Source of the DNA: Sulfurimonas crateris
Lineage (GTDB): Bacteria; Campylobacterota; Campylobacteria; Campylobacterales; Sulfurimonadaceae
Assembly: GCA_945883795.1 (NCBI GenBank)
Contig: CAMCYC010000020.1
Coordinates: 1 to 36,958 of the forward strand
Length of the DNA: 36,958 nucleotides
Direction of reading: 5' to 3'
A model generated the notes under the pieces. That model was not told the DNA's origin, did no database searches, and saw nothing but the letters and a program-made list of their open reading frames with translations. Position numbers and translations under genes: made by a program. Position 1 is the first letter of the stretch. The number at the start of each line of letters is the position of its first letter. Shown in pieces: positions 1,188 through 16,721 of this stretch.

Positions 1188-1652
1188 TTAATTAAAAAAT
1201 TCAATAAAAATTTTCTCTAAATAATTTTTAGTATTTTCCGCTTTTTTAATTTTAACATCAAATATTGGTTTACTTGATGGAAAACGCTCAGAGTATTCAC
1301 TATAAAGTTTTATTTTCATATCAATATTTTTACCAAATTGGTCCATAACCAATCGCATGTCATCTGGCGTAGCAACCCATTGCATAAATTTGTTAAACAT
1401 TCGCTCCCGTACATCTAAAGCAAAATGTTCATCAAGTTCTGCTGCCATCGCCTTTAAATCCCAACGAGAAAAATAGATTCCACTCTTAAATGGAGGCATA
1501 ACTTCTTTATAGATAGCAACCATATAATCAGGATAATCTTCACGATTTTGGTCATCAGTTGCACAACTTTCATCAGAACAATCACTGAATCCGACATTTT
1601 TTTGGAGTTGTTCAAATTCACTTCTAAGTTCATTTAAATCTTTAATATCCAT
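1188..1652 (-). CDS. Conserved-operon protein of unknown function, last gene of Mo-oxidoreductase operon
   Basis: The 154-aa soluble protein has no signal peptide or membrane segment. I do not recognise the family. Near the N-terminus, after a short coiled-coil-like stretch (ELRSEFEQLQK), there is an acidic Cys pair (FSDCSDESCATDD, CxxxxC) that could bind metal or form a disulfide. The rest looks helical and includes FSRWDLKAMAAELDEHFAL. The start ATG shares one base with the stop of the upstream TorD-like gene (TAATG), so translation is probably coupled. Being coupled to a cofactor-insertion chaperone suggests a role in maturation or Tat proofreading of the catalytic subunit, but this is inference from context only. 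Confidence 0.75.
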   Translation of the reverse strand: MDIKDLNELRSEFEQLQKNVGFSDCSDESCATDDQNREDYPDYMVAIYKEVMPPFKSGIYFSRWDLKAMAAELDEHFALDVRERMFNKFMQWVATPDDMRLVMDQFGKNIDMKIKLYSEYSERFPSSKPIFDVKIKKAENTKNYLEKIFIEFFN

Positions 1653-2311
1653 TATGCATCCCCTTTTGGATAATTGTATCCATTTTCTTTTAATGCGGTT
1701 AAGTATTCAAAATCACTCAACATAAATTCTAGAGCCAAATCAGCTGCATCAAAATAAAGAGCAGTTCCTGCTTCTGATTTTACATTTAATAAAAACATTG
1801 GCGCCCATTCTAAGAGGTGTTCTTTTAAAAAGTTATATTGAATCTCTGCAATTTCACCTGCAATTTTGTCTTCCCCATCTTGAAGTGCTTTGAATTCTGA
1901 TTCACAAAGCATGTGCATAAATTCTAATTCAATACCAATATGGTCTGCACTCATAACCCTTGCTTTATCAAGTTCTACAATAAAATCAAAATTACTATAA
2001 AGTGCTTGAACAGGATTATCTCCACCCGTTTCCATTTGTTGGTCTTCTCTTAAATAAAACGATTCGTATGGGATTAAATGAAGTAGGAAAAGATTTGTAA
2101 AATCAACATTTAACTGTTTCTCAATTAAATCTTTATTACTCATATTTTTTCGTTTATCCCACTTTTCAAATGATGGAAAAAAAGATAAAATATTTTCGTC
2201 AGTTATTATTAAATTTAAAAGTGTTTCATCAACTTCACTCATAAGTATTCGAGAGACTAAAGCATAAATATTTACACGAGCAAGTTGCTCTGTTTTTAAA
2301 TCATCTTGCAT
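1652..2311 (-). CDS. TorD/DmsD-family chaperone for molybdoenzyme maturation
   Basis: The 219-aa all-helical cytoplasmic protein carries the family hallmarks PYESFY (residues ~110-115) and ADHIGIELEFMHMLCESE (~140-157), which resemble the conserved PxES and DHxxxELxFM motifs of TorD-like proteins. Such chaperones bind the Tat signal of a molybdopterin apoenzyme and hold it until the Mo-bis-PGD cofactor is inserted. The expected client is the Tat-signal catalytic subunit encoded immediately upstream in the same operon. The 78-nt gap to that gene contains a hairpin, and the next gene overlaps by one base. An A/G-rich AAAGGT lies about 10 nt upstream of the ATG. Confidence 0.85.
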   Translation of the reverse strand: MQDDLKTEQLARVNIYALVSRILMSEVDETLLNLIITDENILSFFPSFEKWDKRKNMSNKDLIEKQLNVDFTNLFLLHLIPYESFYLREDQQMETGGDNPVQALYSNFDFIVELDKARVMSADHIGIELEFMHMLCESEFKALQDGEDKIAGEIAEIQYNFLKEHLLEWAPMFLLNVKSEAGTALYFDAADLALEFMLSDFEYLTALKENGYNYPKGDA

Positions 2312-2355
2312 AAAAGTTGTACCTTTGTTTAGGATTGGATATTTTGAGAAGTATA

Positions 2356-2383
2356 TTAAAGCACCACTTGAAGTGGGCTTTAA
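2356..2383 (-). promoter_or_regulatory. Intercistronic hairpin between catalytic subunit and chaperone genes
   Basis: Read on the minus strand, TTAAAGC-CCACT / AGTGG-(T)-GCTTTAA forms a 12-bp stem with one bulge and a 3-nt loop, 6 nt past the catalytic-subunit stop codon. It is followed by TATACTT and not by a T-run. An mRNA-stability element or attenuator that lowers expression of the two downstream genes is therefore as likely as a terminator. Confidence 0.5.
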
Positions 2384-2389
2384 TAAAAG

Positions 2390-5300
2390 TTACGCTTTGA
2401 TTTCTACAGCGTAAGCTTTGTTAGAAAGAGGAACAGCAGGTCGTCCAATATGTTGTGGACGACGAAGCGTATCACCAACTGCTAAAGGACGAGTCAATTT
2501 ATCTCTCCATGCTTGAAAAATTTTCATATTATTTTCGTAATTTACAACAATATCACCTATTTTATCACCAGCTTTAGCTTTTTCAATAATAACTTTGTGA
2601 TTCCATGCATGATTTCCTGCAATTGGGTCTGGATGCGAAGGTGCTACAGCATTTTGCCATGAACCACTTAGTCCATCCCACCAAATATTATCAAGGTCTT
2701 TATTGTACTCTTTAAACTGCCATACATCATGGCGAGGTTTAATCCCAGCTACTGGTTTAAGTGTACCAACCTTACCATCATTTGTCATCTCATATCGTGG
2801 AGCACCAACGCCCATAATACCGAGAGCATGTTCGAATCCAGGGATATTTACAGAATCTTTTAATTTCCATCTACCTGCATGGTGAGAACAAGCTAAAACA
2901 CCAGGTCGAGTTGCCTCAGTTGGAACTGCCATAGCTACAAAGTAACCACTCTCAAGTTCAGAAACTGTATCTGTAATATTTACACGAATTGCATCGCCTC
3001 GTTTAATACCAAGTTTTTCTGCGTCTTTTGTATAAATCCAAACTGGATTATGGTTTTGAGAAATTTCCATAAGATGTTTAGAGTTTACTGAACGAGTATG
3101 AATATTGTAAGGTAATCTAAATACTGTATTTAATGCAAACTCATTTGGAGCTTTCATCATACTATGATGAATATGCGTTACAACATGTTCCATTTTTTTG
3201 TATTCACTCTCATTTCGTGGATAAATTGGAATAGCATATTCTGGCCATTTCCACTCCGCAAACCACTCAGAGAAAAATTCAAGTTTTTTACTTAAAGTAT
3301 GAAACCCTTCATGAAGTTTACCATTAATTTCGATACCGATTGATTTTTTAATACCATCAGCTTCAATCCATAATGTACCAAATTTATCTTTTACTACTTG
3401 CTCTTTTGAATATTTTTTACCCTCTGCAATATATGTTTCGCCATCAAATTCAAGCTCTTCTTCTTGAGGTTTATAAACATTTGTTTTTTCTGTCCATGCA
3501 CCATGGTCTCTTAAATAGCTATAAACAGGGAATTCATCATTTTTATACATTCTCTGAGCAGTTTCTTTTAATCTTGGTAAAAGACTAAGTGCCGCATCAA
3601 AATATTCAGGTACAGTTACTGCACGAGATGGGTCTTTTTTAGATGCCCAAAATTTACGAATACCTAAACTTCCATCAGGGTCAATATGGTGAACCATAAT
3701 ATTTGCCCAAAATTCTGTTTCTTCCCAAATTTCACCCAAACCATATTTCATGTGTGCTTCAAGTGTAGCTCTTGCAGGATTTTTTGCTTTCCAGCCCATT
3801 TTTTCAGCTGCAACTCTTAGAACTGCTTGACGGAATTCAATTCTTTGTTCTGGTTTTGATGGAGTTGACTGTTGGTCGTTTCTCTCACCAGAGAGACCAG
3901 TTGGTAAAATGTAATCACAATACCAATTTGTTTCACTCCATGTTGGAGAAAGATTAAAAGACATTTCGATTCTTTTTTCATCTTTAAGAGCTTCAATCCA
4001 TCTAAATCCATCTGGATTAATCCACACTGGATTATACATACGAGGGAACCAAACAGCAAGTTTTCTAGGAACATTTAACCCTTTAGCTATCCATTTTTCT
4101 TGCCATGCATCATCCATAAGTAAGTGAGGCATAATATGACTCATCTCATATGTTGAGAGTGGAAATTCTGGTGGCCAAGCAATCTCATTCCATACATCAA
4201 CTTTAGGAGCAGCTTCACCCGCAACTGTAGCTTTGTCGCCTTTACCAGCAACACTAAGCTCATGCCAATGGTGCCAAGAAGTACCACCGATATCACCACG
4301 AAGTGCACCACGAAGTGCTAATGTTAAGAAACCAGCACGAGTAATCATCCAACCACCACGATTAGCAATTGGTCCAGAACGCCATAAATAAGTGGCAATT
4401 TTATCACCTGCGTCTATGTACATTTCCCATAGTGCGTCAAGCTTATGCTCCATGCCTTCAAGTTTACACTCTTTTACTACAAACTCTTTTGTATATGGCG
4501 CATAAAGTTCTTGTGCTAACTTAATAAAATCTTCATAAGTATCACCAGTAGGCATTTTAGATATATATCCATAACCAACCATCTTTTGAAGATAATCTTT
4601 ATTGTCCATCAAACGGTCCCAGTTTAACCACTCTTTTACAAAATCATGAGCTACAAAGTTTTCACCATTTTTATCTTTTTCGTTTAATACACGATTTGCT
4701 AAATATAAATAAAGTGCCGTTTCAGTTCCAGGCCATGCAGGAATCCAAAGGTCAGCCATACCAGCCGAATTTGACATACGAGGGTCAAGAACAACCATTT
4801 TAGCACCCCGTTTTCTCGCATCCGCAATTAAACCAGCTGATTGTTGAAAGTAGTGTCCAGCATCTGCTGCATGAGATGATTGTAAGAAAATTAAATCTGC
4901 ATTTCCCCAATCTGGTGAATTTCTATCATCATTTGCCCATTGAATCGAACCTTGTCTAGCACCAGCTGAACAGATATTTGTATGTGAATTAAATCCGTCA
5001 ATACCCATAGTATGTGGTACACGGTGACCAAAACCATTCTCATTAGGACGACCAACATGGTACATCATCAATTTTTTAGACATTTCATCGCCAACTTTGA
5101 GTGTATCGTGCATTTTTTTACCGATTTCACTCATAGCTTCATCCCAAGTTACACGAACCCATTTCCCTTCACCACGCTTAGAACCAGGTGCTCTTTTGAG
5201 TGGGAATGGGATACGGTCTGGGTCATACATTTGTGAAGTTACAGCATACCCTTTTGCACAGTTACGACCACGAGAACCTGTATGAAGTGGATTACCCATA

Positions 5301-5665
5301 TACTTACGAACTGTCATAGTATCTTTGTTAACCCATGCGGTTAAACCACAACCTGCTTCACAGTTTGAACAAACTGTAGGAACAAGCATAAAATTATTTA
5401 CTTCAATACCATTTGGATTTTCGGCAGATTTTACACCATGACGACCAATACCACCACGCTTCCAATCTGTTCCATCAAGTTCTTGGAAATTATCCCAATC
5501 TTTATGTTCAGGATAAAATGCAATATTATCTGGAGTATTTGTAAATTTTGACTCTGTAACTGATTGTGCTATAGCATCTGTGCTAAATACGCCCCTGGCA
5601 ATAGCAACGCCTGCAACGCTAAATGCAGCACCTTTTAAAAATGTTCTTCTACTTTGTAAATACAT
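2390..5665 (-). CDS. Tat-exported molybdopterin oxidoreductase catalytic subunit (polysulfide/tetrathionate/sulfite type)
   Basis: The 1091-aa protein starts with a textbook Tat signal (SRRTFLK at residues 5-11, then a hydrophobic stretch), so it acts in the periplasm. Four cysteines at 99, 102, 106 and 136 (CSNCEAGC ... GRNCAKG) would bind the N-terminal [4Fe-4S] cluster. C232 in TNICSAGARQG is at the usual position of a cysteine Mo ligand, as in PsrA/PhsA, TtrA and ArrA. Length and gene order (FeS, membrane, catalytic) resemble TtrBCA more than the roughly 750-aa PsrA. SoeA and ArxA types are also possible. The likely substrate is a sulfur compound (polysulfide, thiosulfate, tetrathionate or sulfite), with electrons passing through the FeS and NrfD subunits to or from quinone. 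GGAGAA lies 9 nt upstream of the ATG, and the gap to the membrane subunit gene is 13 nt. Confidence 0.88.
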   Translation of the reverse strand: MYLQSRRTFLKGAAFSVAGVAIARGVFSTDAIAQSVTESKFTNTPDNIAFYPEHKDWDNFQELDGTDWKRGGIGRHGVKSAENPNGIEVNNFMLVPTVCSNCEAGCGLTAWVNKDTMTVRKYMGNPLHTGSRGRNCAKGYAVTSQMYDPDRIPFPLKRAPGSKRGEGKWVRVTWDEAMSEIGKKMHDTLKVGDEMSKKLMMYHVGRPNENGFGHRVPHTMGIDGFNSHTNICSAGARQGSIQWANDDRNSPDWGNADLIFLQSSHAADAGHYFQQSAGLIADARKRGAKMVVLDPRMSNSAGMADLWIPAWPGTETALYLYLANRVLNEKDKNGENFVAHDFVKEWLNWDRLMDNKDYLQKMVGYGYISKMPTGDTYEDFIKLAQELYAPYTKEFVVKECKLEGMEHKLDALWEMYIDAGDKIATYLWRSGPIANRGGWMITRAGFLTLALRGALRGDIGGTSWHHWHELSVAGKGDKATVAGEAAPKVDVWNEIAWPPEFPLSTYEMSHIMPHLLMDDAWQEKWIAKGLNVPRKLAVWFPRMYNPVWINPDGFRWIEALKDEKRIEMSFNLSPTWSETNWYCDYILPTGLSGERNDQQSTPSKPEQRIEFRQAVLRVAAEKMGWKAKNPARATLEAHMKYGLGEIWEETEFWANIMVHHIDPDGSLGIRKFWASKKDPSRAVTVPEYFDAALSLLPRLKETAQRMYKNDEFPVYSYLRDHGAWTEKTNVYKPQEEELEFDGETYIAEGKKYSKEQVVKDKFGTLWIEADGIKKSIGIEINGKLHEGFHTLSKKLEFFSEWFAEWKWPEYAIPIYPRNESEYKKMEHVVTHIHHSMMKAPNEFALNTVFRLPYNIHTRSVNSKHLMEISQNHNPVWIYTKDAEKLGIKRGDAIRVNITDTVSELESGYFVAMAVPTEATRPGVLACSHHAGRWKLKDSVNIPGFEHALGIMGVGAPRYEMTNDGKVGTLKPVAGIKPRHDVWQFKEYNKDLDNIWWDGLSGSWQNAVAPSHPDPIAGNHAWNHKVIIEKAKAGDKIGDIVVNYENNMKIFQAWRDKLTRPLAVGDTLRRPQHIGRPAVPLSNKAYAVEIKA

Positions 5666-5678
5666 TTATATTTTCTCC

Positions 5679-6581
5679 TTAACTAAGTGGTAATAATTGT
5701 GGAATAACAAGCCAAACATGTTTAACTACCCACAAACCTGCGATTGCTAAAATAGCTGCAAGGCTTAAAATACTACTGCTTTTACTTACTCTGCTCAGTA
5801 CAACTAATAACATTGGCAAAATATAAGCAACCCATTGTCCTACCCAGAACATTGTCGCATATTTTCCATCACCTTTTACATATTCTAATACTGCTGCAAC
5901 TTCTTCAGCTTTCATAGCACCAAAAATATATTCTGACATGTAAATAATAAATGCCATTAAAGCACTTAATCCTAAGATAGCACCAAAAAATCTTTTTGTT
6001 TCATCGCTAAGTTTTGAACCACCAATTAAAATAATTGTAGCCGAACCTGAAAGTGTTGCTGCTAAAATCATCTGAACTGATTCTGTTGGCATTTGCCACA
6101 ATTCTCTAGCGGTTGATTCTGCCATAATACCCGCAGTATAAAGAGTAACAGGAATTGCAAGAAGCGTTACCCAAAATAATAATTTGTCAAATAAAACTGT
6201 ATCTTTTTTCATAATCATAACAGCAATCATAAGCGCTTCAAGACCAACAAATAAAGTAGCCATCCAAGCACCAATTGTAATTGCTGAAGTCATATGAGGA
6301 TAGAAAAAGATATGCCACATTCTCCACATTTGATGTAAATCTAACCAAGTAAATAATAAGAAAACATTCATCATAATAAATGATACAATAATTGTCGGTG
6401 TTCTTAACGATGTCATTTCACTTGAATTCTTTTTAAGCAACAAGAAAATCATAAAGATTAAACCCGTACCAATACTTTTTGCCCACATATTCATGGTAAC
6501 ATACCAACCCCAAAAAATGTCTGGTAACGGTACATCCAAGGTTACTACAGCGTTTGTTGCTGCTAAAGTTTCATGTATCAT
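5679..6581 (-). CDS. NrfD/PsrC-type quinone-interacting membrane subunit
   Basis: The 300-aa protein is almost entirely hydrophobic, with about eight predicted membrane helices separated by short charged loops (for example VMIMKKDTVLFDK). Early conserved NrfD-like features include PDIFWGWYVTMNMW and FTWLDLHQMWRMWHIFF. Such subunits carry the quinone site and anchor the FeS and molybdenum subunits on the periplasmic face. Its ATG overlaps the stop of the FeS-subunit gene (TAATG), so the two are likely translated in a coupled manner. Eight helices would be the PsrC layout; a precise count needs a topology prediction. Confidence 0.88.
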   Translation of the reverse strand: MIHETLAATNAVVTLDVPLPDIFWGWYVTMNMWAKSIGTGLIFMIFLLLKKNSSEMTSLRTPTIIVSFIMMNVFLLFTWLDLHQMWRMWHIFFYPHMTSAITIGAWMATLFVGLEALMIAVMIMKKDTVLFDKLLFWVTLLAIPVTLYTAGIMAESTARELWQMPTESVQMILAATLSGSATIILIGGSKLSDETKRFFGAILGLSALMAFIIYMSEYIFGAMKAEEVAAVLEYVKGDGKYATMFWVGQWVAYILPMLLVVLSRVSKSSSILSLAAILAIAGLWVVKHVWLVIPQLLPLS

Positions 6582-7219
6582 TAGTGGTGCCCTCCTAAAG
6601 GAAGTGTAGTTATATTATTAAATAAATTGAAACCTTCTTCTCTTCTTGAAGCAAGAGGATTCAAAGTTACATTGCCGCCGCCTACATAATAATGATGAGG
6701 ATTCGTACCTTTTTCAGGTTTACGCACTTGTACATTTCCTGCATGGCGTTGAATATATTTAGAAATATTTGAAGTTGGGTCTTCTAAGTCACCAAAGATA
6801 TTTGCTTCAACTGGACAAGCAACAACACACGCAGGCATCATGCTCGATGCGATACGGTGAGCACAGTAAGTACACTTATCAGCAGTTTGAGTTTCAGGGT
6901 CAATATAAATTGCACCATAAGGACAAGCCATAACACAACCAGCACAACCGATACATCTTTCTTTATCAATATTCACAATACCATTTTCAATATAATGTAA
7001 AGCACTAACTGGACAAATTCTCTCACATGGAGCATTTTCACAGTGATTACATCGAAGTGGCGTAAATGTTCTTTTCGTCTCTGGAAATGTTCCAACATCA
7101 ACATACTTTACACGCAATCTCCATGTACTCAATGGAACTTCATTTTCCACTTTACAGGCGATTTCACACCCTTTACATCCCATACAAAGATGTAAATCAA
7201 CTAGGAACCCTAATTGCAT
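6581..7219 (-). CDS. Four-cluster [4Fe-4S] electron-transfer subunit (PsrB/DmsB/TtrB type)
   Basis: The 212-aa protein has four cysteine groups typical of the DmsB family: CMGCKGCEIAC, CNHCENAPCERIC, CIGCAGCVMAC and CTYCAHR with PACVVACP. This gives 16 cysteines for four [4Fe-4S] clusters that wire the catalytic subunit to the membrane subunit. It has no signal peptide of its own, so it is expected to be exported with the Tat-signal catalytic subunit. It is the first gene of the operon. AAAGGGGA lies a few bases upstream of the ATG, a strong ribosome-binding site. Confidence 0.92.
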   Translation of the reverse strand: MQLGFLVDLHLCMGCKGCEIACKVENEVPLSTWRLRVKYVDVGTFPETKRTFTPLRCNHCENAPCERICPVSALHYIENGIVNIDKERCIGCAGCVMACPYGAIYIDPETQTADKCTYCAHRIASSMMPACVVACPVEANIFGDLEDPTSNISKYIQRHAGNVQVRKPEKGTNPHHYYVGGGNVTLNPLASRREEGFNLFNNITTLPLGGHH

Positions 7220-7504
7220 ATATTCCCCTTTAAGCCATTTTATTGGCGAATTTAAGATTTATAACTTGAACTAATTAGCTGTACAAGAAACTTTTATAAA
7301 ATATAAAATATAATAGTATTCTCAACTCTAAAAATGGTATCTAATTTATCTTAAATAATTAGTTAAGATGTAATATTTTTGTGATATTTTTTTTGAAGTG
7401 AGTAGATTTGGAATATTTTTTAATTTAATTTTTTTTTAATATTCTCTTTTATATTTTCGCCTTATAATAACGAAAATTGATTCAAAAAATTGGAAGTTGT
7501 AACT
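7220..7504. promoter_or_regulatory. Divergent promoter region between oxidoreductase and chemosensory operons
   Basis: This 285-bp, very AT-rich region holds the start signals of both operons. On the plus strand TATAAT (7463-7468), preceded by T-runs as in other Campylobacterota promoters, is a good -10 for the chemosensory operon. On the minus strand several TATA-like hexamers occur around 7300-7325, but none stands out. An imperfect CTTG...CAAG dyad at 7265-7287 containing CTAATTAG could be an operator. No gene was found here. Confidence 0.55.
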
Positions 7505-7942
7505 ATGGATGTAATTATTTTTTCCACCAATCAGGATTATTATACTCTTCCTGTAAGTAAGATTATACGGGTTCTTTGGGCAGTTGAAGTAACATTGATA
7601 CCAAAATCTCCAAAAGTTTTATATGGTGTTTTTGATTTACATGGCAAGACAATTCCTGTTGTCTCTATTAGAGAACTACTTTCACTAGAACCAAAACAGA
7701 TGGAACTTGAAGATGCTCTTATTATTTTAGATGTTCATTCTCATCAAATGGCACTTTTAGTAGACAATATTATAGGTGTTTATGAGTTAGAAGAGGAGGA
7801 TTCACGGGAAGCTTCTGAGCTTTTTAAAGAATTAGCTACAACTCATATTGTGAAATATGATGATAGACTAATCCCTGTTTTGGATATAGATAACTTAATT
7901 GAGAGTGATATGCTCAGTTCTATTTCCACTAAAAAGGGTTGA
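7505..7942 (+). CDS. cheW: CheW-like coupling protein, first gene of chemosensory operon
   Basis: The 145-aa single-domain CheW protein (MDVIIFSTNQDYYTLPVSKI...) has the typical GVFDLHGKTIPVVSIRELL and ALLVDNIIGVYEL segments. CheW proteins link chemoreceptors to the CheA kinase at the cytoplasmic membrane. I prefer the ATG at 7505, which has GGAAG 8 nt upstream; an in-frame TTG at 7490 would add five residues and has no good ribosome site. It starts the chemosensory operon and is followed by cheR after 1 nt. It is one of two CheW proteins here, like WspB and WspD in the Pseudomonas Wsp system. Confidence 0.88.
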   Translation: MDVIIFSTNQDYYTLPVSKIIRVLWAVEVTLIPKSPKVLYGVFDLHGKTIPVVSIRELLSLEPKQMELEDALIILDVHSHQMALLVDNIIGVYELEEEDSREASELFKELATTHIVKYDDRLIPVLDIDNLIESDMLSSISTKKG

Positions 7943-7943
7943 C

Positions 7944-9176
7944 ATGTCAATGATTCAGGATGTGCAAACTTTTTTAACTCTAAACTTGGGATGGAAGATA
8001 GAGATTCATGAGCCAACTTTTGAAGTAAAACTCAGAAGAGTTTGCAAAGAGCTTGGATTTTCTGAACTTAACTTTTGTGTCAAATCTCTTCAAAATTTGG
8101 AAAAAAACAGTAAAGTATTACAAGCTTTCGCCCGTGAATATAGTGTTGGTGAAACCTATTTTTTCAGAGACCTTCAGTTTTTTGAATATTTTAAAAATAG
8201 TATGATTCCCCAAATCATCAATAAAAATGAGCGTTCTTTATCAATTTGGTCAGTTGGATGTAGCAGTGGTGAGGAACTTTACTCTATTGCCATCATGCTT
8301 TTGCAAATGATTCCTGATATTGACACATGGGACCTTTATCTACTTGGAACAGATGTCAATCCGCAGTCGATAGACAAAGCTAGACAAGGGGTTTTTACGC
8401 AGTTTTCATTTAGGCAGATGCCTGAAGTTTATAAAAGCTATTTCAAAGAAGATAATGGAATTTTTGAAATTTCGCAAAAGATAAAAAATATGGTTCATTT
8501 TAAATACCACAATATGATGGATGAACCCTATAGTTGTTTACCTTTAAATGGGAATGGATTTGATTTGATTCTTCTCAAAAATGTCCTTATCTACTTCGAT
8601 ACAAAAAAAGCAAAAACAGTAGTAGAATCTCTTTTTAATGTTCTCAAGGAGGGTGGATGTCTTGGAACTACACCAGCTGAATATAGTGTAACAGTATTTA
8701 ATTTCCCCCACACAAAGTGTTCCCAAGATGGATATCTTATACAAAAATCCGCCAAACCAAAAGAAAATATATTTATCCTTCCAGAAGAGCCAAAAATAAT
8801 AGAAATGGTGATTGAAGATTTGGTCGAATCAGAGCCACAAAGTAAGCCTGAGCAACCTAAAGTTGAACAAAAAGACACTCAATACAGCTATTATCATAAT
8901 GCACTTGAGAGGTTAAAACATGAGGACAATGAAGGGGCAAAAGTATTTTTAAGACATGCTCTTTATCTTGATAGAGATTTAGTCATGGCACATATAGTCC
9001 TAGCAAATATCCTTAAAAAAGAGAAAAAATTTGAGACAGCGCTAAAACATGTGAATAATGCCAAAGCAAAACTCAGGCAGATGCCTCCCCAAGAGATAGT
9101 GAAGCTTTCAGGTGACATTACGGCAAGTGATTTGCTAGTGATGATAGATGCGATAAAAGGGGGAACTTTTGAATAA
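7944..9176 (+). CDS. cheR: CheR receptor methyltransferase with C-terminal TPR region (WspC-like)
   Basis: The 410-aa protein has a CheR domain in residues ~10-275: an N-terminal helical part, the SAM-binding SVGCSSGEELYSIAI motif, GTDVNPQSIDKAR, and LLKNVLIYFD. A charged linker (about 280-310) leads to a tetratricopeptide-like C-terminus (YHNALERLKHEDNEGAKVFLRHAL and VLANILKKEKKFETALKHV). CheR methylates receptor glutamates using S-adenosylmethionine. The TPR tail is a feature of alternative-function systems such as WspC and FrzF, not of flagellar CheR. The ATG at 7944 follows AAAAAGGG; a second ATG lies two codons later. It is 1 nt from the previous gene and overlaps the next by 8 nt. Confidence 0.92.
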   Translation: MSMIQDVQTFLTLNLGWKIEIHEPTFEVKLRRVCKELGFSELNFCVKSLQNLEKNSKVLQAFAREYSVGETYFFRDLQFFEYFKNSMIPQIINKNERSLSIWSVGCSSGEELYSIAIMLLQMIPDIDTWDLYLLGTDVNPQSIDKARQGVFTQFSFRQMPEVYKSYFKEDNGIFEISQKIKNMVHFKYHNMMDEPYSCLPLNGNGFDLILLKNVLIYFDTKKAKTVVESLFNVLKEGGCLGTTPAEYSVTVFNFPHTKCSQDGYLIQKSAKPKENIFILPEEPKIIEMVIEDLVESEPQSKPEQPKVEQKDTQYSYYHNALERLKHEDNEGAKVFLRHALYLDRDLVMAHIVLANILKKEKKFETALKHVNNAKAKLRQMPPQEIVKLSGDITASDLLVMIDAIKGGTFE

Positions 9177-9669
9177 TGTACAAAATATACTTAGACAAAG
9201 AGCACTCAAAGCTGCAAAAAAGCTAGAGAGCAATGAAATTATTGATGGTATTGAGCTTATTTTCTTTAGAATTGGAAATGATATATATGCCATTGAAGCT
9301 GGGAGCGTGAGTGAAGTTCATAAGTTTAAAGAGCCTACTCCTGTTCCGTTTACTCCTGCATACATTCAGGGAATTTTCCACATGAGAGGGAAGTTTATCT
9401 CACTTGTAAACCTTAAAAGTTTTTTGGGTATAACTGAGCAAGGTGAAGTAAAAGAAGCTCTTTCTATCGTATTTCTCAGCAATCAAACTATGGAGTTTGG
9501 GATAGCAGTAGATGAAATTCTCGAGCAAAAAAGAATATCAAAAAAAGAGATTCAAACTCTCACAGCGGGTTTTGACCTTCCAAGAGTCGATTTAATTGTC
9601 GGTGTAACAGAAAATGCGGTCATTGTTTTAGACGGCAAAAAAATGTTGACAGATTTTACTATGAAATAA
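9169..9669 (+). CDS. cheW: Second CheW-like coupling protein
   Basis: The 166-aa protein has an N-terminal helix (about 25 residues) ahead of a CheW domain with IELIFFRIGNDIYAIEAGSV, PAYIQGIFHMRGKFISLVNL and FGIAVDEILEQK. The start is a TTG at 9169: it has AAAAGGGGG upstream, no other in-frame start precedes the domain, and the nearby ATG (9176) is in another frame. The gene therefore overlaps the end of cheR by 8 nt. It would couple the receptor array to the CheA encoded downstream, in the position corresponding to WspD. Confidence 0.9.
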   Translation: MNNVQNILRQRALKAAKKLESNEIIDGIELIFFRIGNDIYAIEAGSVSEVHKFKEPTPVPFTPAYIQGIFHMRGKFISLVNLKSFLGITEQGEVKEALSIVFLSNQTMEFGIAVDEILEQKRISKKEIQTLTAGFDLPRVDLIVGVTENAVIVLDGKKMLTDFTMK

Positions 9670-9751
9670 AAATTGAATAATCACTAATTTTATTCTTATT
9701 CGTACAATTGTTCGCAAATGAAAAAAATTACAACCTTATAGAAAGGAGAAA

Positions 9752-11749
9752 ATGATGTTAAGTAATGTAAGTTTGAAAAAAAAGATATTAGTAGGTGGGT
9801 TATTACCTCTCTTGCTAATTGGGTTGGTAAATGTTGTTGGTTTGATTAATTTTAATGGCGTTATAGAGAGTTACCAATGGGTGTCTATTACAAACAAAGT
9901 TATTGAAATGGGAGGTAATATTGAAAAATCTGCTTTAAATATGCAAACAGGAGAAAGAGGCTATCTACTTACAGGAAATAAAGAATTTTTAGAACCCTAT
10001 ACAAACGGTGTCCAAAACTATAAGCAAATATTTAAAGAGCTAAAAGCTCTTATAACTATCAAAGAATCATTAGATGCAATTACAGACGCAGAAGAGATAC
10101 TCGATGGATGGAAAATAAATATTGCAGAACCTTTTATTCAAAGGCGTAGCAGTCTTGACAATACGCCAGATAATTTAAAAATAATAAGTGATATGGTCTC
10201 AACAGAAAAAGGGAAAGAGTATTTCGAAAAGTATCGCCAAAAGATGAATATATTTGAAAAAAATGAAAAAAATATTCTTCAAGAACGAACAAAAGATGCC
10301 GACGATGTGGCAACTACGACCAATTATATTATTATTTTTGGAACTGCTACCGTAGTTATACTAGCTCTTTTTATCTCCATGTTTTTTGTTAAAATGATTA
10401 CTAATCCTATTTTAAAAATCAAAGAAGCCGCTTTGAAAATAGGCAAAGGCGATATTGATGTTGCCATTGATATTGAGAGTCATGATGAAGTGGGTGAAAT
10501 GGCAAAAGCGTTTATGGCTATGAGTGAAAGATTAAATAAAATGTCAAGAATTGCACATCAAATCGGTGAAGGTAATTTTAATATTACCGTAGAAAAATAC
10601 TCTGATAAAGATATTTTAGGCAACTCTTTTGAAGACATGATAAAAAATTTAAACAATATTGCTCGTATTGCGCATCAAATTGGACAAGGTAATTTGAATG
10701 TTACATTTACAAAACGCTCAGACAATGACATATTAGGCAATGCCTTTGAAGACATGATAAAAAATTTAAACAATATCGCCAGTGTTGCACATCAAATTGG
10801 GCAAGGTGATTTGAATATTAAATTTACAAAACGCTCAGACAATGACTTATTAGGAGTTGCCTTAGAAAATATGCTCTCCAATCTTAATACAATTATGTTT
10901 GAGTTAAAACATGGTATTCTTTCTCTAAACAGTGCTACAACTGAGATTTTAGCGACTACAACAGAAGTAGCTTCAGGTGCATCTCAAACTTCTTCGGCTG
11001 TTGCGCAAACATCGGCTTCGATAGAGGAGATAAAGCAAACAGCAAAATCAAGTAGTGCTAAAGCAGTACAAACAGCAGAAAGTACAAGCAAAGCAATAGA
11101 GATTGCTAAAAGTGGAACTTTAGGATTAATTGAAAATATGCAAGGACTTGCTCAGATAAAAGAGAAAATGGATTTAATCGCTTCAAATATTATACTTTTA
11201 AGCCAACAAAGCCAACAAATAGGTGAGATTACAAGCACAGTAGAAGATATAGCCAATCAATCAAACATGCTTGCAGTAAATGCTTCCATAGAAGCAATAA
11301 AAGCAGGCGAACAAGGCAAAGGGTTCTCTATTGTAGCCTTGGAACTCAAAAACCTCTCTGAACAGTCAAAACAAGGTGCAAAACAAGTTCAAAAGATTCT
11401 TACAGATATACAAAAAGTAACGGGAACTTTGGTGATGGCGGCAGAACAAGGTGCAAAAGCAGTTGAGAGAGGCGTAAAACAGGCTCAAAGTGCCAAAAAT
11501 TCAATGGACCAACTTAATACAACCGTACAAAGTGCAGCAAATGCAGGCAAACAAATTGCAGCTTCGTATGAGCAAGAACTTGCTGGTATGGACCAAATTT
11601 CAGGGGCGATGAACAGCGTAAGAGAAGCAACCATTCAAAATCTAAGTAGTATAAAACAAGTTGAAGAATCAGCCCATGACCTCAACACCTTAAGCCAAAA
11701 ACTAAGAGAAATTATGGAACATTATACAATAGCTGAAAATAAAAGATAA
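9752..11749 (+). CDS. Methyl-accepting chemotaxis protein with CHASE3-like sensor and triple HAMP-like repeat
   Basis: The 665-aa receptor has a membrane helix at ~12-34; a periplasmic helical domain with the CHASE3-like signature MQTGERGYLLTGNKEFLEPY (64-83); a second helix at ~191-213; a HAMP domain (214-264); three tandem 39-residue HAMP-like units (265-381); and a cytoplasmic signalling domain. The hairpin tip (IANQSNMLAVNASIEAIKAG, near residue 505) departs from the usual IAxQTNLLALNAAIEAARAG. There is no C-terminal CheR-docking pentapeptide. WspA-like placement suggests sensing of surface or envelope state, which is inference. AAGGAG precedes two adjacent ATGs (9752 and 9755); spacing favours the second. 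Confidence 0.92.
   Translation: MMLSNVSLKKKILVGGLLPLLLIGLVNVVGLINFNGVIESYQWVSITNKVIEMGGNIEKSALNMQTGERGYLLTGNKEFLEPYTNGVQNYKQIFKELKALITIKESLDAITDAEEILDGWKINIAEPFIQRRSSLDNTPDNLKIISDMVSTEKGKEYFEKYRQKMNIFEKNEKNILQERTKDADDVATTTNYIIIFGTATVVILALFISMFFVKMITNPILKIKEAALKIGKGDIDVAIDIESHDEVGEMAKAFMAMSERLNKMSRIAHQIGEGNFNITVEKYSDKDILGNSFEDMIKNLNNIARIAHQIGQGNLNVTFTKRSDNDILGNAFEDMIKNLNNIASVAHQIGQGDLNIKFTKRSDNDLLGVALENMLSNLNTIMFELKHGILSLNSATTEILATTTEVASGASQTSSAVAQTSASIEEIKQTAKSSSAKAVQTAESTSKAIEIAKSGTLGLIENMQGLAQIKEKMDLIASNIILLSQQSQQIGEITSTVEDIANQSNMLAVNASIEAIKAGEQGKGFSIVALELKNLSEQSKQGAKQVQKILTDIQKVTGTLVMAAEQGAKAVERGVKQAQSAKNSMDQLNTTVQSAANAGKQIAASYEQELAGMDQISGAMNSVREATIQNLSSIKQVEESAHDLNTLSQKLREIMEHYTIAENKR
10544..10894 (+). 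repeat. Three tandem 117-bp in-frame repeats in the MCP gene
   Basis: The units start at 10544, 10661 and 10778, each encoding 39 residues of the pattern RIAHQIGxGNxNxTxxKxSDxDILGNxFEDMIKNLNNI. Units 1 and 2 share a long identical stretch across GAAGACATGATAAAAAATTT, and units 2 and 3 share AAACGCTCAGACAATGAC. This high DNA identity points to recent duplication or ongoing homogenisation. Confidence 0.9.
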
Positions 11750-11760
11750 GTGAGCATATT

Positions 11761-13971
11761 ATGGATATGAAAAATGAAGCTTTTCTAAAGAGGCTTCTTG
11801 AAACTTTTGCACAAGAAGCTAAAGAGCATATAGACAGGCTTTCTGATGGACTTCTAAACCTAAAAAAGAGTAGTGACAGTAACGCTGACAAAGTGCTTGT
11901 GGAAGCTCTTTTTAGAGAAGCACATAGTTTTAAAGGTGCATCTCGTTCTGTAAATATCTCAGAGATTGAAGAACTATGTAAAGCCATGGAAGATATCTTT
12001 AGCCACACCAAACAATCAGGTGAAAAGATACTCAACTCTCAAATAGAGGTGATGCTAGAGATAAATGACATGTTAACTATTTTAAGTACCTCAAATGAGG
12101 AAAAAAGAAGGGATTTAAAACCAAAGGTTCAAGAGCTTATAGAAGCTCTCTATCTAAAAACGCAAATAAAAAGTGATATACAAAAAAAAGTCACTCCTCA
12201 ACCACAAACAAGTACTCTAGTAGCACCAATAGAACTGCCAGAAGAGATTATCCAAGAAGAGGTTCAAAAAGAAGAACTTCCAGAAATAGTAAAAGTGGAT
12301 AGTGCAGAACCTCTACTAAAAGTTGAGGAAACTATACGAATTCCAATAGAAAAGCTCAATTCAATCATGCGTCAATCTGAAGAGATGCTCTTTGCAAAAA
12401 TGGTTGCAAAGCGTCATGTCAATGAATTGAATATAATTGAGAATGAAGTAGCAGACCTTATAAAAACTCTTAAAAATAGTACGCAAGATGAAATACTCAA
12501 AAAATTAACAACAACAGAGTTACTCCTAAGTAAATCAATCAAGCAAACAAAAGGCGATGCAAGAGAAATAAATTTAATGGTAGACCACCTTATCGAGGAC
12601 ATGAAAGAAGCTTTGATGCTCCCATTTTCGACAATTTTTTCCACTCTACCAAAAATCGTCCATGACATGGGCAAAAGTGTTAGTAAAGATATAAGTTTAA
12701 CAGTCATTGGTGGTGACATACAAATTGATAGAAGAATTTTAGAGCAAATGCATGACCCACTTATCCATCTTTTACGCAACTCAATCGACCATGGGATAGA
12801 GCATCTTGGAACTATTACCTTGACGCTTATTCAAAAAAGTGCATCAAAAATACAACTCTCAGTACGAGATGATGGCAGAGGAATTGATACCCAAAAAATA
12901 CGCCAAAATGCTGTAAAAAAAGGGATTCTTACTCAAAAAAATGCTGATATATTAGACGAAGAGAGCGTGTTAAATCTCATTTTTCAATCAGGTGTCTCAA
13001 CGGCTAAAATTGTAACTGATTTATCTGGCCGTGGATTGGGATTAGCAATAGTCAAAGAAAAAACTGAACAGCTTGGCGGTCAAGTGCAAGTGAGCAATAA
13101 TAAAAATGCAGGGTGTACCTTTACAATAACTTTACCTCTGAGCATGTCAACTTTTAGAGGGGTTATAACCTCTTTAGGAAAACAAAAATTTATATTTGCA
13201 AGTGAACGCATTGTGCGTGTCATGACACTAGAGAAAAAAAACATTAAAAATATTGAAGGGAAAGAGATGGTTGTAGTAAACCACCTTGTAGTACCTTATT
13301 ATCATTTGAGTAATATTCTAAGAGTTCCATTCACACAAAATGAATCTACCAAGATTTCTATCGTTGTTCTAAAATCGGCTGATGAAATGCTTGCTGTTGG
13401 TGTAGATACGGTTGAATATGAAGAAGAGGTTATGGTAAAATCGCTTGGAAAACAGCTTGAAAAAGTTCAAAATATTTCTGGTGTTTCACTATTGGCTTCA
13501 GATATGCCAGCACTTATTTTAAATATTTCTGATATTTTCAAATCGCTTGGAACTGTTTCATTTAAAACAACAATTGCACCAAAAAAAGAGATTTTATTAA
13601 AAGAAAAATCGAAGATACTGGTTGTAGATGACTCCCCAACAACACGAGCATTGCTTCAAAATGTTTTGGAGATGGTCGGATATAATATTGTAGCTGCTGT
13701 TGATGGTTTGGAAGCTTTTGAAATACTTAAAAAAGAGCATTTTGATTTACTAGTTTCAGATGTAGATATGCCCAGAATGAATGGATTCGAATTGACAGAA
13801 TCTATCCGTAAAGATACTAAAATCTCAGAGTTGCCAATTATTTTAGTAACATCTTTGGAATCGGAATCAGACAAAGAAAAAGGGATGCATGCGGGTGCAA
13901 ATGCTTATCTTTCAAAAAGTACATTTGACCAAAACAATCTTATTGATAACATTCAATCGCTGATTGACTAA
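11761..13971 (+). CDS. cheA: CheA-REC hybrid chemotaxis histidine kinase (WspE-like)
   Basis: The 736-aa protein contains an Hpt domain with the phosphorylatable H55 (AHSFKGAS); a linker without a recognisable P2 domain; a dimerisation region; a HATPase domain with N-box HDPLIHLLRNSIDHG (~331-345), DDGRGID (~370) and GRGLGLAIV (~422); a CheW-like regulatory domain (~460-600); and a C-terminal receiver with D623/D624 and phosphoacceptor D667 (VSDVDMP). Receptor state controls autophosphorylation at H55, followed by transfer to receivers. The fused receiver is typical of WspE and FrzE and may act as a phosphate sink. It lies 11 nt after the MCP gene and 15 nt before cheB. Confidence 0.95.
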   Translation: MDMKNEAFLKRLLETFAQEAKEHIDRLSDGLLNLKKSSDSNADKVLVEALFREAHSFKGASRSVNISEIEELCKAMEDIFSHTKQSGEKILNSQIEVMLEINDMLTILSTSNEEKRRDLKPKVQELIEALYLKTQIKSDIQKKVTPQPQTSTLVAPIELPEEIIQEEVQKEELPEIVKVDSAEPLLKVEETIRIPIEKLNSIMRQSEEMLFAKMVAKRHVNELNIIENEVADLIKTLKNSTQDEILKKLTTTELLLSKSIKQTKGDAREINLMVDHLIEDMKEALMLPFSTIFSTLPKIVHDMGKSVSKDISLTVIGGDIQIDRRILEQMHDPLIHLLRNSIDHGIEHLGTITLTLIQKSASKIQLSVRDDGRGIDTQKIRQNAVKKGILTQKNADILDEESVLNLIFQSGVSTAKIVTDLSGRGLGLAIVKEKTEQLGGQVQVSNNKNAGCTFTITLPLSMSTFRGVITSLGKQKFIFASERIVRVMTLEKKNIKNIEGKEMVVVNHLVVPYYHLSNILRVPFTQNESTKISIVVLKSADEMLAVGVDTVEYEEEVMVKSLGKQLEKVQNISGVSLLASDMPALILNISDIFKSLGTVSFKTTIAPKKEILLKEKSKILVVDDSPTTRALLQNVLEMVGYNIVAAVDGLEAFEILKKEHFDLLVSDVDMPRMNGFELTESIRKDTKISELPIILVTSLESESDKEKGMHAGANAYLSKSTFDQNNLIDNIQSLID

Positions 13972-13986
13972 AAAAGAGGAAACACT

Positions 13987-15039
13987 ATGATACGATTAAT
14001 GATTGTTGATGATTCAGAAACTGTCATTGAGTTATTAACTTACTCTTTTGCAACAGAGTCTGACATAGAAGTTGTTGGGATAGCAAAAGATGGTCGAGAA
14101 GCTGTAAAGATGGTAAAAGAACTCAAACCTAATATTATTCTTATGGATATTAACATGCCAAATCTCAATGGCTATGAAGCTTCTGAAATAATTATGAATG
14201 AAAGCCCTACTCCAATTCTCCTGATGAGTGCCACTTGGGATATAAAAGAAGTTGAAAAAATTCTTGAAAGTATGCATATTGGGGTACTTGGAGTATATGA
14301 AAAACCTTATGGGCTTAGACATCCAAAGTACAAAGAACTCTATGATAGAATAGTTGCAGATATTAGAGTATTATCTGATGTCAAAGTAATTCGTCGATTT
14401 AATACCAATTTAAAAAAACAAGAGTTAAATTTCAAACCCATAGAAAATGTAAAATGCGTAAATAATTATGGCGTTGTATTAATCGGTGCTTCAACTGGCG
14501 GACCGCCAGTTCTTCACACCATTTTGAAAACACTTAGTGCTGATTATCCTCTACCAATATTAGTAGCACAACACATGAGCAAAGAATTTATTGACACATT
14601 TATACAGTGGTTAAATGGAGAGTGTAAAGTGCATGTGAAAGAAGCAGAAGATGGGGAAAAAATATCTGCAGGAAATGTCTATATCGCACCTGCAAACTAT
14701 CACTTATCGCTTTCAAATAAAAGAATCAAACTTCTTAAAGCTGAGGCAAGTGATTTGTATGTTCCCTCTGTTTCAAAACTATTCTCTTCTGTAAGTCAGG
14801 CTAATGCAAGTGAAACCATAGCTATTTTGCTTTCTGGCATGGGAAATGATGGTTCTGAAGAGATTACAAAACTCAAACTTGCTGGTGCTATTACAATTGC
14901 ACAGAATAAAGAAACTTCTGTAGTTTTTGGGATGGCAAATGAAGCAATAAAAAAAAATGGAATAGAATTTATTTTATCGCCAGAAGGGATTGCGGAATTT
15001 TTATTAACCATCAAAATTAATAATAGGGGTATCATCTGA
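13987..15039 (+). CDS. cheB: CheB protein-glutamate methylesterase (WspF-like)
   Basis: The 350-aa protein has an N-terminal receiver (D8/D9; phosphoacceptor D54 in LMDINMP) joined by a linker to the methylesterase domain. Its catalytic triad is visible: S169 (GASTGGPP), H196 (AQHMS) and D288 (GMGNDG). It removes methyl groups from receptor glutamates, opposing the CheR encoded in the same operon; phosphorylation of the receiver by CheA would activate it. GAGGAAAC precedes the ATG, and the stop overlaps the start of the downstream hybrid kinase (TGATG). In Wsp, loss of WspF locks the system on; the same adaptation role is expected here. Confidence 0.95.
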   Translation: MIRLMIVDDSETVIELLTYSFATESDIEVVGIAKDGREAVKMVKELKPNIILMDINMPNLNGYEASEIIMNESPTPILLMSATWDIKEVEKILESMHIGVLGVYEKPYGLRHPKYKELYDRIVADIRVLSDVKVIRRFNTNLKKQELNFKPIENVKCVNNYGVVLIGASTGGPPVLHTILKTLSADYPLPILVAQHMSKEFIDTFIQWLNGECKVHVKEAEDGEKISAGNVYIAPANYHLSLSNKRIKLLKAEASDLYVPSVSKLFSSVSQANASETIAILLSGMGNDGSEEITKLKLAGAITIAQNKETSVVFGMANEAIKKNGIEFILSPEGIAEFLLTIKINNRGII

Positions 15040-16721
15040 TGAATACGCAAACATACAAAAAAATAAATGTATCTATTCTAGTCGTTGAAGACAGTCTTAC
15101 TCAAGCAACAGAAGTTCAATATTTCCTTGAACAAAATGGTTATAAAGTTACTCTCTGTCATGACGGACAAGAAGCATTAACATGGCTTCAAAACGCAAAA
15201 ATATTACCTGATGTTATTGTGAGCGATATAATCATGCCACATTTAGACGGGTATCAATTTTGTAAAGCAGTCCGTTTAGATGAGAAGCTTAAAAATCTTC
15301 CCGTAATTCTTTTGACCTCACTCTCAGAGCCTCATGACATTATAAAAAGTATAGAAGCGGGAGCAAATAAATTTCTTACAAAACCTTTTGACCATAAACG
15401 ACTCCCTGAAGTTATAGATGAACTTTACATCAATACACAGCGAAGAAGCGTGGAGCGAATGGAGATGGGAATTCGGCTGATGTTTGGTGGAAAAGATTTT
15501 CTTATCACCGCAGATAAAGTACAGATACTCGATTTGTTATTGTCAAGCTATGAAGATTCCTACTATAAAAATATTCAGCTTCAAAAGAGCCGAAGTGCAC
15601 TTGAGAGATTAAATGCAGAGCTTGAGCAAAAGATTCAAGAACGGACACAAGAACTTAAAGTTCAAGAAAAACAGTATAGAACTCTTACCGAACACACTCC
15701 TGATTTGATTTTTAGAATAGATAAAAATATGAATTTTATTTATGTAAATAGAGCTGTTGAAAAGCTGTTTGATATACCTCGTACAAAATTAATTAATCAG
15801 CCGATAAGTATAATAGAAGAAATAGAAAAAAATTACTCATTCACAACTACTGTAAGCAAAGTTTTTAAAACAAAGAAGATGATTCGATTGGAGGTTGAAA
15901 TTAACACACCTCATGGGATGAAATGGATAGATTCCACTTGTGTCCCTGAATTTAATGAAAATAATGAAGTGGAATATGTTTTAAAAGTTTCCCGTGATAT
16001 TAGCGAGCTTAAAGAAAAAGATAAAATCCTGATGGTTCAATCTCGCCAAGCCGCCATGGGAGATATGATTGCCATGATTGCCCATCAATGGAGACAGCCA
16101 CTTTCTGTTGTGAGCATGGAAGGAAACAATCTTAGAGCCTCCATTGAGCTTGAAGAGAAGATAACAAATGAGTATCTTCTTCAATATATAGAACGGGTAA
16201 ATCTGCAAATTCAACAACTCTCAAAAACAATTGATGATTTTAGGAACTTTTTTAAACCAAAGCAGGATAAAGAGATAGTTAGCGTTGGAGATGTTGTTGA
16301 AAAAGTGATGACGCTGATTCAAAAGAGTTTGGAAAACAATAATATTCTTGTAGAAATTGACAATAGAAGTAAAACTAAAATCTCAATATATGCAAATCAA
16401 CTCCTCCAAGTTTTCATCAACATCATCAATAATGCCAAAGATATATTACAACGCAACAAAATTATGAATGCAAAAATAAGTATCACAATTGATGAAACGC
16501 AAGATTCAGTTATGACAACTATCTGCGATAATGGCGGAGGAATCCCAGAAAATATCATAGAAAGAATTGGCGAACCATATTTCACAACAAAACAAATCAA
16601 TGGAACAGGACTTGGCATCTATATGTCCAAAACAATTATCACAGAACATTTAAATGGACAGATAACTTGGCAAAATAAAAATGATGGGGCTTGTTTTACA
16701 ATAACATTACCTAGACAATAA
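15039..16721 (+). CDS. REC-PAS-histidine kinase, probable output of the chemosensory system
   Basis: The 560-aa soluble protein has an N-terminal receiver (E17/D18, phosphoacceptor D63 in VSDIIMP, KPFD loop); a coiled-coil linker (~185-215); a PAS domain (~215-330); a HisKA-type dimerisation helix with H349 (IAHQWRQPL); and a HATPase domain with NIINNAKD, DNGGGIP and GTGLGIYMSK. No membrane segment is seen. The start ATG overlaps the cheB stop, so it belongs to the operon. Its receiver is a plausible target of the CheA phosphoryl group, which would make it a kinase controlled by the array. It occupies the place of WspR but has no GGDEF domain. Its own partner response regulator is not in the window. 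Confidence 0.92.
   Translation: MNTQTYKKINVSILVVEDSLTQATEVQYFLEQNGYKVTLCHDGQEALTWLQNAKILPDVIVSDIIMPHLDGYQFCKAVRLDEKLKNLPVILLTSLSEPHDIIKSIEAGANKFLTKPFDHKRLPEVIDELYINTQRRSVERMEMGIRLMFGGKDFLITADKVQILDLLLSSYEDSYYKNIQLQKSRSALERLNAELEQKIQERTQELKVQEKQYRTLTEHTPDLIFRIDKNMNFIYVNRAVEKLFDIPRTKLINQPISIIEEIEKNYSFTTTVSKVFKTKKMIRLEVEINTPHGMKWIDSTCVPEFNENNEVEYVLKVSRDISELKEKDKILMVQSRQAAMGDMIAMIAHQWRQPLSVVSMEGNNLRASIELEEKITNEYLLQYIERVNLQIQQLSKTIDDFRNFFKPKQDKEIVSVGDVVEKVMTLIQKSLENNNILVEIDNRSKTKISIYANQLLQVFINIINNAKDILQRNKIMNAKISITIDETQDSVMTTICDNGGGIPENIIERIGEPYFTTKQINGTGLGIYMSKTIITEHLNGQITWQNKNDGACFTITLPRQ

Follow-up and report, generated by a model that had tools for sequence, protein, structure and literature searches.

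The 36,958-nucleotide window analysed here, i.e. the whole stretch of contig CAMCYC010000020.1 of Sulfurimonas crateris, carries five minus-strand open reading frames (ORFs) at positions 7219-1188, which encode a molybdenum oxidoreductase of the complex iron-sulfur molybdoenzyme (CISM) type together with two smaller proteins. Reading along the genes, these are an iron-sulfur (FeS) subunit (B, 212 aa, 6581..7219; Fer4_11, 78.6 bits), an NrfD-type membrane subunit (C, 300 aa, 5679..6581; PF03916, 53.2 bits, cut-off 25.8), a catalytic molybdopterin subunit (A, 1091 aa, 2390..5665; assigned by Pfam matches, tree and alignment), a TorD/NarJ-type chaperone (219 aa, 1652..2311; PF02613, 68.8 bits, cut-off 22.2) and a helical 154-aa protein, called x154 below (1188..1652), with nothing over cut-off in Pfam or NCBIfam. 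Molybdopterin, FeS and membrane anchor subunits are all over the Pfam cut-offs, the models passed being Molybdopterin, Molybdop_Fe4S4, Molydop_binding, NrfD, Fer4_11 and Nitrate_red_del (TorD/NarJ type). The FeS and NrfD genes, as well as the TorD and x154 genes, overlap by one base, while 13 bases separate NrfD from the catalytic gene and 78 bases the latter from TorD. The same gene order is found in many genomes, thus the operon arrangement is not due to chance. The B-C-A order and the TorD-like chaperone named in the initial annotation are thereby confirmed; its five-gene operon is correct but incomplete, as the commonest arrangement has two further genes between those of TorD and x154.

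These two genes encode a ferredoxin and a protein resembling shikimate dehydrogenase (AroE-like), and with TorD and x154 they make up a conserved accessory set. In our search of 397 Campylobacterota genomes, with the catalytic subunit counted at E≤1e-100, this subunit was present in 85 genomes and x154 in 87, both occurring together in 82, and the ferredoxin accompanied the catalytic subunit in 85 of 85 cases (17 other genomes gave mostly weaker matches). Among 80 named loci retained from 317 relatives, 40 show the order FeS-NrfD-catalytic-TorD-ferredoxin-AroE-like-x154 and five the order of the window; the other 35 are incomplete, either terminally or internally, often because the contig breaks off, and four of them (L123, L131, L139 and L155) have no accessory genes in the roughly 9 kb that follow the catalytic gene. 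In two genomes (G333 and G319) the FeS-NrfD-catalytic trio and TorD-ferredoxin-AroE-like-x154 form separate clusters. In two of the three catalytic-subunit genomes without x154 (G047 and G390) the catalytic gene lies near a contig end. The five genomes with an x154 match and no catalytic subunit comprise two fragmented assemblies (G199 and G389), one with a weak paralogue type (G394) and two (G194 and G263) with matches at E about 1e-4 over short stretches in 500-aa frames. The initial annotation was therefore right to regard the fifth protein as coupled, but it is not a loose member of the enzyme, since it belongs to the conserved set. As a separate observation, a small cytochrome c gene stands in or beside the operon at several loci (L067, 7212-7568, and L078, 566-928, confirmed by Pfam; L064, L069 and L079 by look).

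The genome of the window is a mosaic of two subtypes. The window is without the ferredoxin and AroE-like genes, and the same genome keeps both side by side on another contig (C8:14792-16584), between SbcC-like and AcrB-type genes. The catalytic subunit, TorD and x154 are 88, 81 and 78% identical to those of G116, a genome of the vent type in which the seven genes are all present, and 62-63, 54-56 and 28-31% identical to the main Sulfurimonas type, respectively. On C8, the ferredoxin is 46% identical to the vent type and 73% to the main type, and the AroE-like protein is 56% identical to the main type. Another genome (G037) shows how such a mosaic arose: its main-type accessory locus has kept the ferredoxin-AroE pair and its flanks (51-82% identical, pgpA included) and lost TorD and x154, which are present in the vent-type operon, so that the genome still has a complete set of four, spread over two places. 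TorD and x154 follow the catalytic subtype, the ferredoxin-AroE pair is exchangeable, and the main-subtype pair in a vent-type genome is a trace of gene exchange between subtypes. From this natural division of the four genes between two loci, seen in two genomes, the exchangeable partners can be predicted.

The catalytic subunit, one copy of which occurs among the four PF00384 proteins of the genome, starts with MYLQSRRTFLKG and has a twin-arginine translocation (Tat) signal at residues 5-11, within the motif SRRTFLKG (residues 5-12). Alignment columns place a predicted [4Fe-4S] site at C99, C102, C106 and C136 (codons within 5258..5371, minus strand), i.e. CxxCxxxC in the form CSNCEAGC and a later Cys, and a predicted Mo ligand at C232 (codon 4970..4972, minus strand) within NSHTNICSAGAR, in a column common to the Cys-ligated references. 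A Cys-ligated, Tat-exported enzyme, as proposed initially, agrees with these features. No NCBIfam cut-off was passed by the catalytic subunit in our scan: it scored 123 bits against PhsA (cut-off 694; a Campylobacterota reference reaches 1032), 64.5 against ArrA (cut-off 1600) and 58 against TtrA (cut-off 1750), the last being a strict cut-off, since TtrA-like references themselves reach only 960.

The position of the enzyme was assessed in a 40-row IQ-TREE tree including PhsA, TtrA, ArrA (one ArrA-like row, itself under the NCBIfam cut-off), DmsA, NapA, Fdh, TorA and type II rows. Labels came from NCBIfam scans of some rows and family searches, the remaining rows being labelled by look and tree, and the naming of groups followed inspection of the tree. 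The program flagged long end branches (ArrA, DmsA, Azoarcus and a single BisC row) and an odd amino-acid make-up (four Tat-less relatives). The ten rows from Campylobacterota group together (100/100) and are joined first by four enzymes without a Tat motif, those of Thermomicrobium roseum, Rhodococcus jostii RHA1 (plasmid pRHL3) and two haloarchaea (14 rows, 100/100), then by Azoarcus KH32C (15 rows, 100/99), and then by TtrA and the ArrA-like row (20 rows, 99/98). The catalytic subunit lies outside all the reference groups named. Holding the 15-row clade with PhsA was rejected by the approximately unbiased (AU) test (p 0.012), whereas holding it with TtrA alone was not (p 0.228). Earlier AU tests (p 4.5e-77 and 1.2e-113) were set aside, because they forced the Campylobacterota rows apart from their sister group and were no fair test of membership. 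Plain membership in PsrABC or TtrBCA was dismissed, the cut-offs being missed and nesting absent, which agrees with the initial view that the enzyme is not of the PhsA/PsrA type. Of the family tree proposed at that stage, the part that could be built shows no nesting in any sampled clade; SoeA, SreA, ArxA and the Wolinella and Thermus PsrA stand outside the sample. Three plasmid matches considered as SoeA references (H81, H84 and H15) were judged by their neighbour genes to be other enzymes.

Sister enzymes were collected by tblastn of plasmid records, where among the best 50 of 706 matching records nine had a coverage of at least 80%, including one Sulfurovum and one Azoarcus; neighbour genes were read in five sister loci, two more haloarchaeal matches being left out. 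When 31 positions surrounding the Mo ligand are compared with the window protein, 22, 26, 22 and 21 residues are identical in the four sister rows and no more than 10 in any of the other 26 rows; the overall identity is 37-42% for the former and 18-30% for the latter. This near identity of the ligand surroundings indicates that the chemistry is probably common to the sisters and the window enzyme. The sisters differ from the latter in having no Tat motif and in a fusion of FeS and NrfD into one protein (four compared), and at their loci no TorD was seen and an Mrp ATPase adjoins in three of five. Sulfur genes (rhodanese, TusA/DsrE or TauE/SafE) occur at three of the five loci: DsrE-like, TusA and rhodanese-metallo-beta-lactamase proteins, with Mrp, in R. 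jostii, and rhodanese with a TauE/SafE sulfite exporter in Halomicrococcus and Natrinema caseinilyticum. The T. roseum locus has a metal-sensitive repressor gene, and at the Natrinema halophilum locus no rhodanese, TusA/DsrE, TauE/SafE, repressor or Mrp neighbours were seen. The more distant Azoarcus KH32C enzyme has 8 of the 31 residues in common. Its plasmid locus (pAZKH, L170) contains an FeS-NrfD-Mo-TorD operon with three hypothetical genes, a 132-aa protein and a relative of the accessory ferredoxin (phmmer 7e-24), and adjoins arsenic genes and a PhnD-like/kinase/sigma-54 regulator set.

Two of the accessory proteins resemble known families but score below their cut-offs. The ferredoxin (about 366 aa) has three canonical and one variant four-cysteine motif as well as a C-terminal CxxC pair. 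Like NapF, a cytoplasmic multi-cluster FeS protein proposed, in the available text of PMC10609526, to act in maturation of a Tat-exported Mo enzyme, it is a multi-cluster protein beside such an enzyme; unlike NapF, it has this length and its own motif set, and it misses the NapF cut-off (36 bits, cut-off 102). The AroE-like protein shares with shikimate dehydrogenase its predicted fold (for the model of one copy, pLDDT (predicted local distance difference test) 82.6, Foldseek lists shikimate dehydrogenases first, E 2.8e-14) and matches NCBIfam shikimate dehydrogenase models below cut-off (top 70/252 bits). The catalytic motifs of AroE are NxTxPxK and NTD. Neither was found in the aligned AroE-like proteins, and 37 of 50 copies have just 121-189 aa, without the Rossmann half (one, L140, is cut by a contig end), while the genome's own AroE scores 220.7 bits (cut-off 200.2) with NITIPHK and NTD intact. 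The missing motifs and the short copies indicate that the AroE-like protein is probably a non-catalytic look-alike and no enzyme of the shikimate dehydrogenase type.

In x154, residues P54, G58, Y60, S62, D65, R82, M85 and Y117 are invariant and C30 nearly so; no conserved cofactor site is evident in the alignment and no signal motif was seen at the N-terminus. Hits to RhoGEF (Pfam, 15.4/27.6 bits) and T4SS (NCBIfam, 16.2/206) were dismissed as lying below cut-off. In twelve regions with weak x154 matches (L177-L188), an ORF matching the x154 profile is present in 9 and a different Mo subunit in 12, the only one scanned (L177) being nearest to type II DMSO reductases (800/984.75 bits); ferredoxin paralogues, about 28-35% identical, lie 5-10 kb from several of the twelve. 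The recurrence of both families beside a second Mo enzyme fits a role in maturation. These regions were also noted to hold a second Tat-type Mo enzyme with a rhodanese, an LRV-repeat protein, the x154 paralogue and an Mrp-type ATPase (Mrp/NUBPL in L177). We infer that x154 is probably a client-matched assembly factor acting beside TorD. That it is instead a structural subunit or redox partner would agree with its place in the operon and its co-occurrence with the catalytic subunit in 82 of 85 genomes, but appears quite unlikely, because in genomes with separate clusters its gene lies with those of TorD, ferredoxin and the AroE-like protein and not with the trio, and because neither a signal motif nor a conserved cofactor site was seen in it.

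Taken together, we favour, with slightly better than even confidence, a quinone-linked periplasmic oxidoreductase of sulfur compounds with a dedicated cytoplasmic maturation set. The catalytic subunit would receive its FeS cluster and bis-pyranopterin guanine dinucleotide (bis-PGD) cofactor in the cytoplasm while TorD holds the Tat peptide and the apo-subunit. The ferredoxin may, in the way suggested for NapF (PMC10609526), provide or repair this cluster, and the AroE-like protein and x154 may hold cofactor or client. The Tat system would then export the finished subunit, which would work with the four-cluster B and the NrfD-type C in electron exchange with the (mena)quinone pool. An inorganic sulfur compound is the most likely substrate. 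The sulfur-gene settings of the sister loci in aerobes suggest sulfur oxidation, and mainly on this ground we regard oxidation of a sulfur oxyanion (of the sulfite or thiosulfate type), with quinone as electron acceptor, as the most likely direction, at somewhat less than an even chance. A broader proposal, which we consider doubtful, is that the 'polysulfide reductase' of sulfur-oxidising Campylobacterota represents a separate molybdoenzyme family feeding electrons from a sulfur oxyanion to quinone, to which cytoplasmic enzymes of aerobic bacteria and haloarchaea, so far uncharacterised, also belong. Its Campylobacterota branch would be matured by a novel type of crew consisting of TorD, x154 as a helical client-matched factor, the multi-cluster ferredoxin and, as a binding scaffold, a shikimate dehydrogenase that is no longer active.

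Other substrates have to be weighed against this. A polysulfide or sulfur reductase, passing menaquinol electrons via NrfD and FeS to periplasmic polysulfide, would agree with the psrABC annotation in Sulfurimonas and Sulfurovum, with psrA1 reported in all Sulfurovum and highly expressed, and with the top solved relative by sequence (Thermus 2vpw, 120 bits, residues 95-338). We consider it unlikely: the PhsA cut-off is missed by far, the enzyme stands apart from the PhsA rows and grouping with them was rejected, psrA1 is reported in the available text of PMC10045233 to show no significant change between sulfur and nitrate reduction, and families f5 and f10 of other PhsA/TtrA/ArrA-like enzymes are without the present catalytic subunit at the threshold given above. 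More improbable is a reductase of tetrathionate or another oxyanion on a TtrA-related branch. The B-C-A order, the top NCBIfam model of the FeS subunit (TtrB, 206 bits against a cut-off of 416; this subunit has a mean pairwise identity of 83% over 40 loci), the joining of TtrA and ArrA to the clade and the AU result for TtrA speak for it, while the TtrA score, the at most 10 of 31 ligand-region residues common with TtrA rows and the reported lack of tetrathionate use as an energy source in S. hydrogeniphila, a statement silent on acceptor use, speak against. Equally hard to credit is an oxyanion of arsenic, selenium or nitrogen, for which the arsenic genes beside the Azoarcus relative and the neighbouring TtrA/ArrA rows would argue; the nearer relatives have the sulfur-gene neighbours described, and Azoarcus shares few of the ligand-region residues.

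Several points weigh against the favoured oxidoreductase with its maturation set. Co-occurrence is counted over related genomes without correction for kinship, and the correlations of pairwise distances (40 linked loci, likewise uncorrected), which in themselves speak for the two blocks, differ only modestly within and between them, being 0.91-0.94 for the accessory four, 0.83-0.90 for the trio and 0.73-0.90 across. Reciprocal loss is known from two genomes only, and one genome (G210) has TorD, ferredoxin and the AroE-like gene with x154 not found, seemingly absent or unrecognised. No informative fold match was obtained with the x154 model (pLDDT 85.6), as Foldseek gave none at E≤0.001 and the top VIA Z of 7.2 is within noise for helical proteins. 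Members of Sulfurimonas unable to grow on sulfite are reported in the available text of PMC7952632 and PMC4584964. There is also no tie to SoxB, which is present in 46 of the 85 catalytic-subunit genomes and in 46 genomes without the subunit; a link to thiosulfate oxidation by SoxB was accordingly rejected.

A hairpin is predicted between the catalytic stop codon and torD (2354..2385, minus strand; -16.7 kcal/mol, z -5.2), with none of 200 shuffles equally good. In relatives with gaps of at least 25 nt, structure at this place reached z below -2 in 57 of 65, scored against shuffles and not against other intergenic gaps. This conserved hairpin may lower expression of the chaperone genes. Sulfurovum-type gaps also contain, between hairpin and torD, a conserved TTATCTTGAAAGTGGTAT with an upstream inverted partner, as a single copy each in 19 of 260 loci (e.g. 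L129, 12381-12398; L171, 9401-9418). A sigma-70 promoter scan gave no excess over shuffles (26 vs 27.2), a terminator scan gave 5 vs 3.6 in shuffles, and a scan with Rfam gave no match. The flanking genes are oppositely oriented, with plus-strand ORFs from 7490 on upstream and an FtsK/SpoIIIE-family gene downstream (169-1095). The divergent neighbours at 7490-16721 were judged by look to be chemotaxis genes (CheW-, CheR-, methyl-accepting chemotaxis protein- and CheA-like).

The system is real and conserved, and is partly known under an annotation that the present evidence does not support. The literature drawn on comprised the available text of PMC10045233, PMC7952632, PMC4584964, PMC9948710, PMC12998232, PMC9122950, PMC8359478, PMC10100899, PMC10609526 and PMC4464133. 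There, the psrABC of Sulfurimonas and Sulfurovum is treated as a polysulfide reductase (PMC4584964, PMC10045233, PMC9122950) with psrA1 highly expressed (PMC10045233), while Psr, Phs and Sre are described as indistinguishable by sequence and possibly running in reverse (PMC8359478). The annotated psrABC very probably includes the present family, hence the enzyme as such is not new. Both are universal in the genera sampled, the function of the former resting there on annotation and transcripts, and the ligand Cys of Sulfurovum members (247-253) lies near the reported Cys-257 of the NBC37-1 PsrA; however, the PsrAs of these papers are said, in the text available, to lack a typical twin-arginine motif, and the present members have one. 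The accessory set appears undescribed within the literature searched, as among the papers listed in our searches, with subscription papers outside their scope, none was seen to describe it or to mention a shikimate dehydrogenase with a molybdoenzyme. In metagenome and transcriptome studies, Sulfurimonas psrABC is taken as a sign of sulfur reduction, and if the enzyme is not a polysulfide reductase, or works in reverse, such interpretations of sulfur cycling in redoxclines and vents change. The accessory set also raises a new question on molybdoenzyme maturation, namely why a Mo enzyme exported by Tat should require both a shikimate dehydrogenase that is no longer active and, beside TorD, another client-matched helper.

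The genes of PsrABC and PhsABC are arranged ABC, and those of tetrathionate reductase ttrBCA. With the former the window enzyme shares a CISM with FeS and NrfD subunits and a Cys ligand, differing in the PhsA score, clade and gene order. With TtrBCA and TtrD it shares the gene order and a TorD-type chaperone, such as that cited for archaeal Ttr in PMC4464133, but it differs in the TtrA score and the ligand-region residues; the initial label 'Ttr-like' thus holds for gene order and not for the TtrA score. SoeABC, compared here by description and not by sequence, differs in its catalytic subunit, which is listed as cytoplasmic (PMC10100899) and taken to be without a Tat signal, while that of the window carries SRRTFLKG, and resembles the window enzyme in its possible chemistry, i.e. 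from sulfite to quinone via FeS and membrane subunits.

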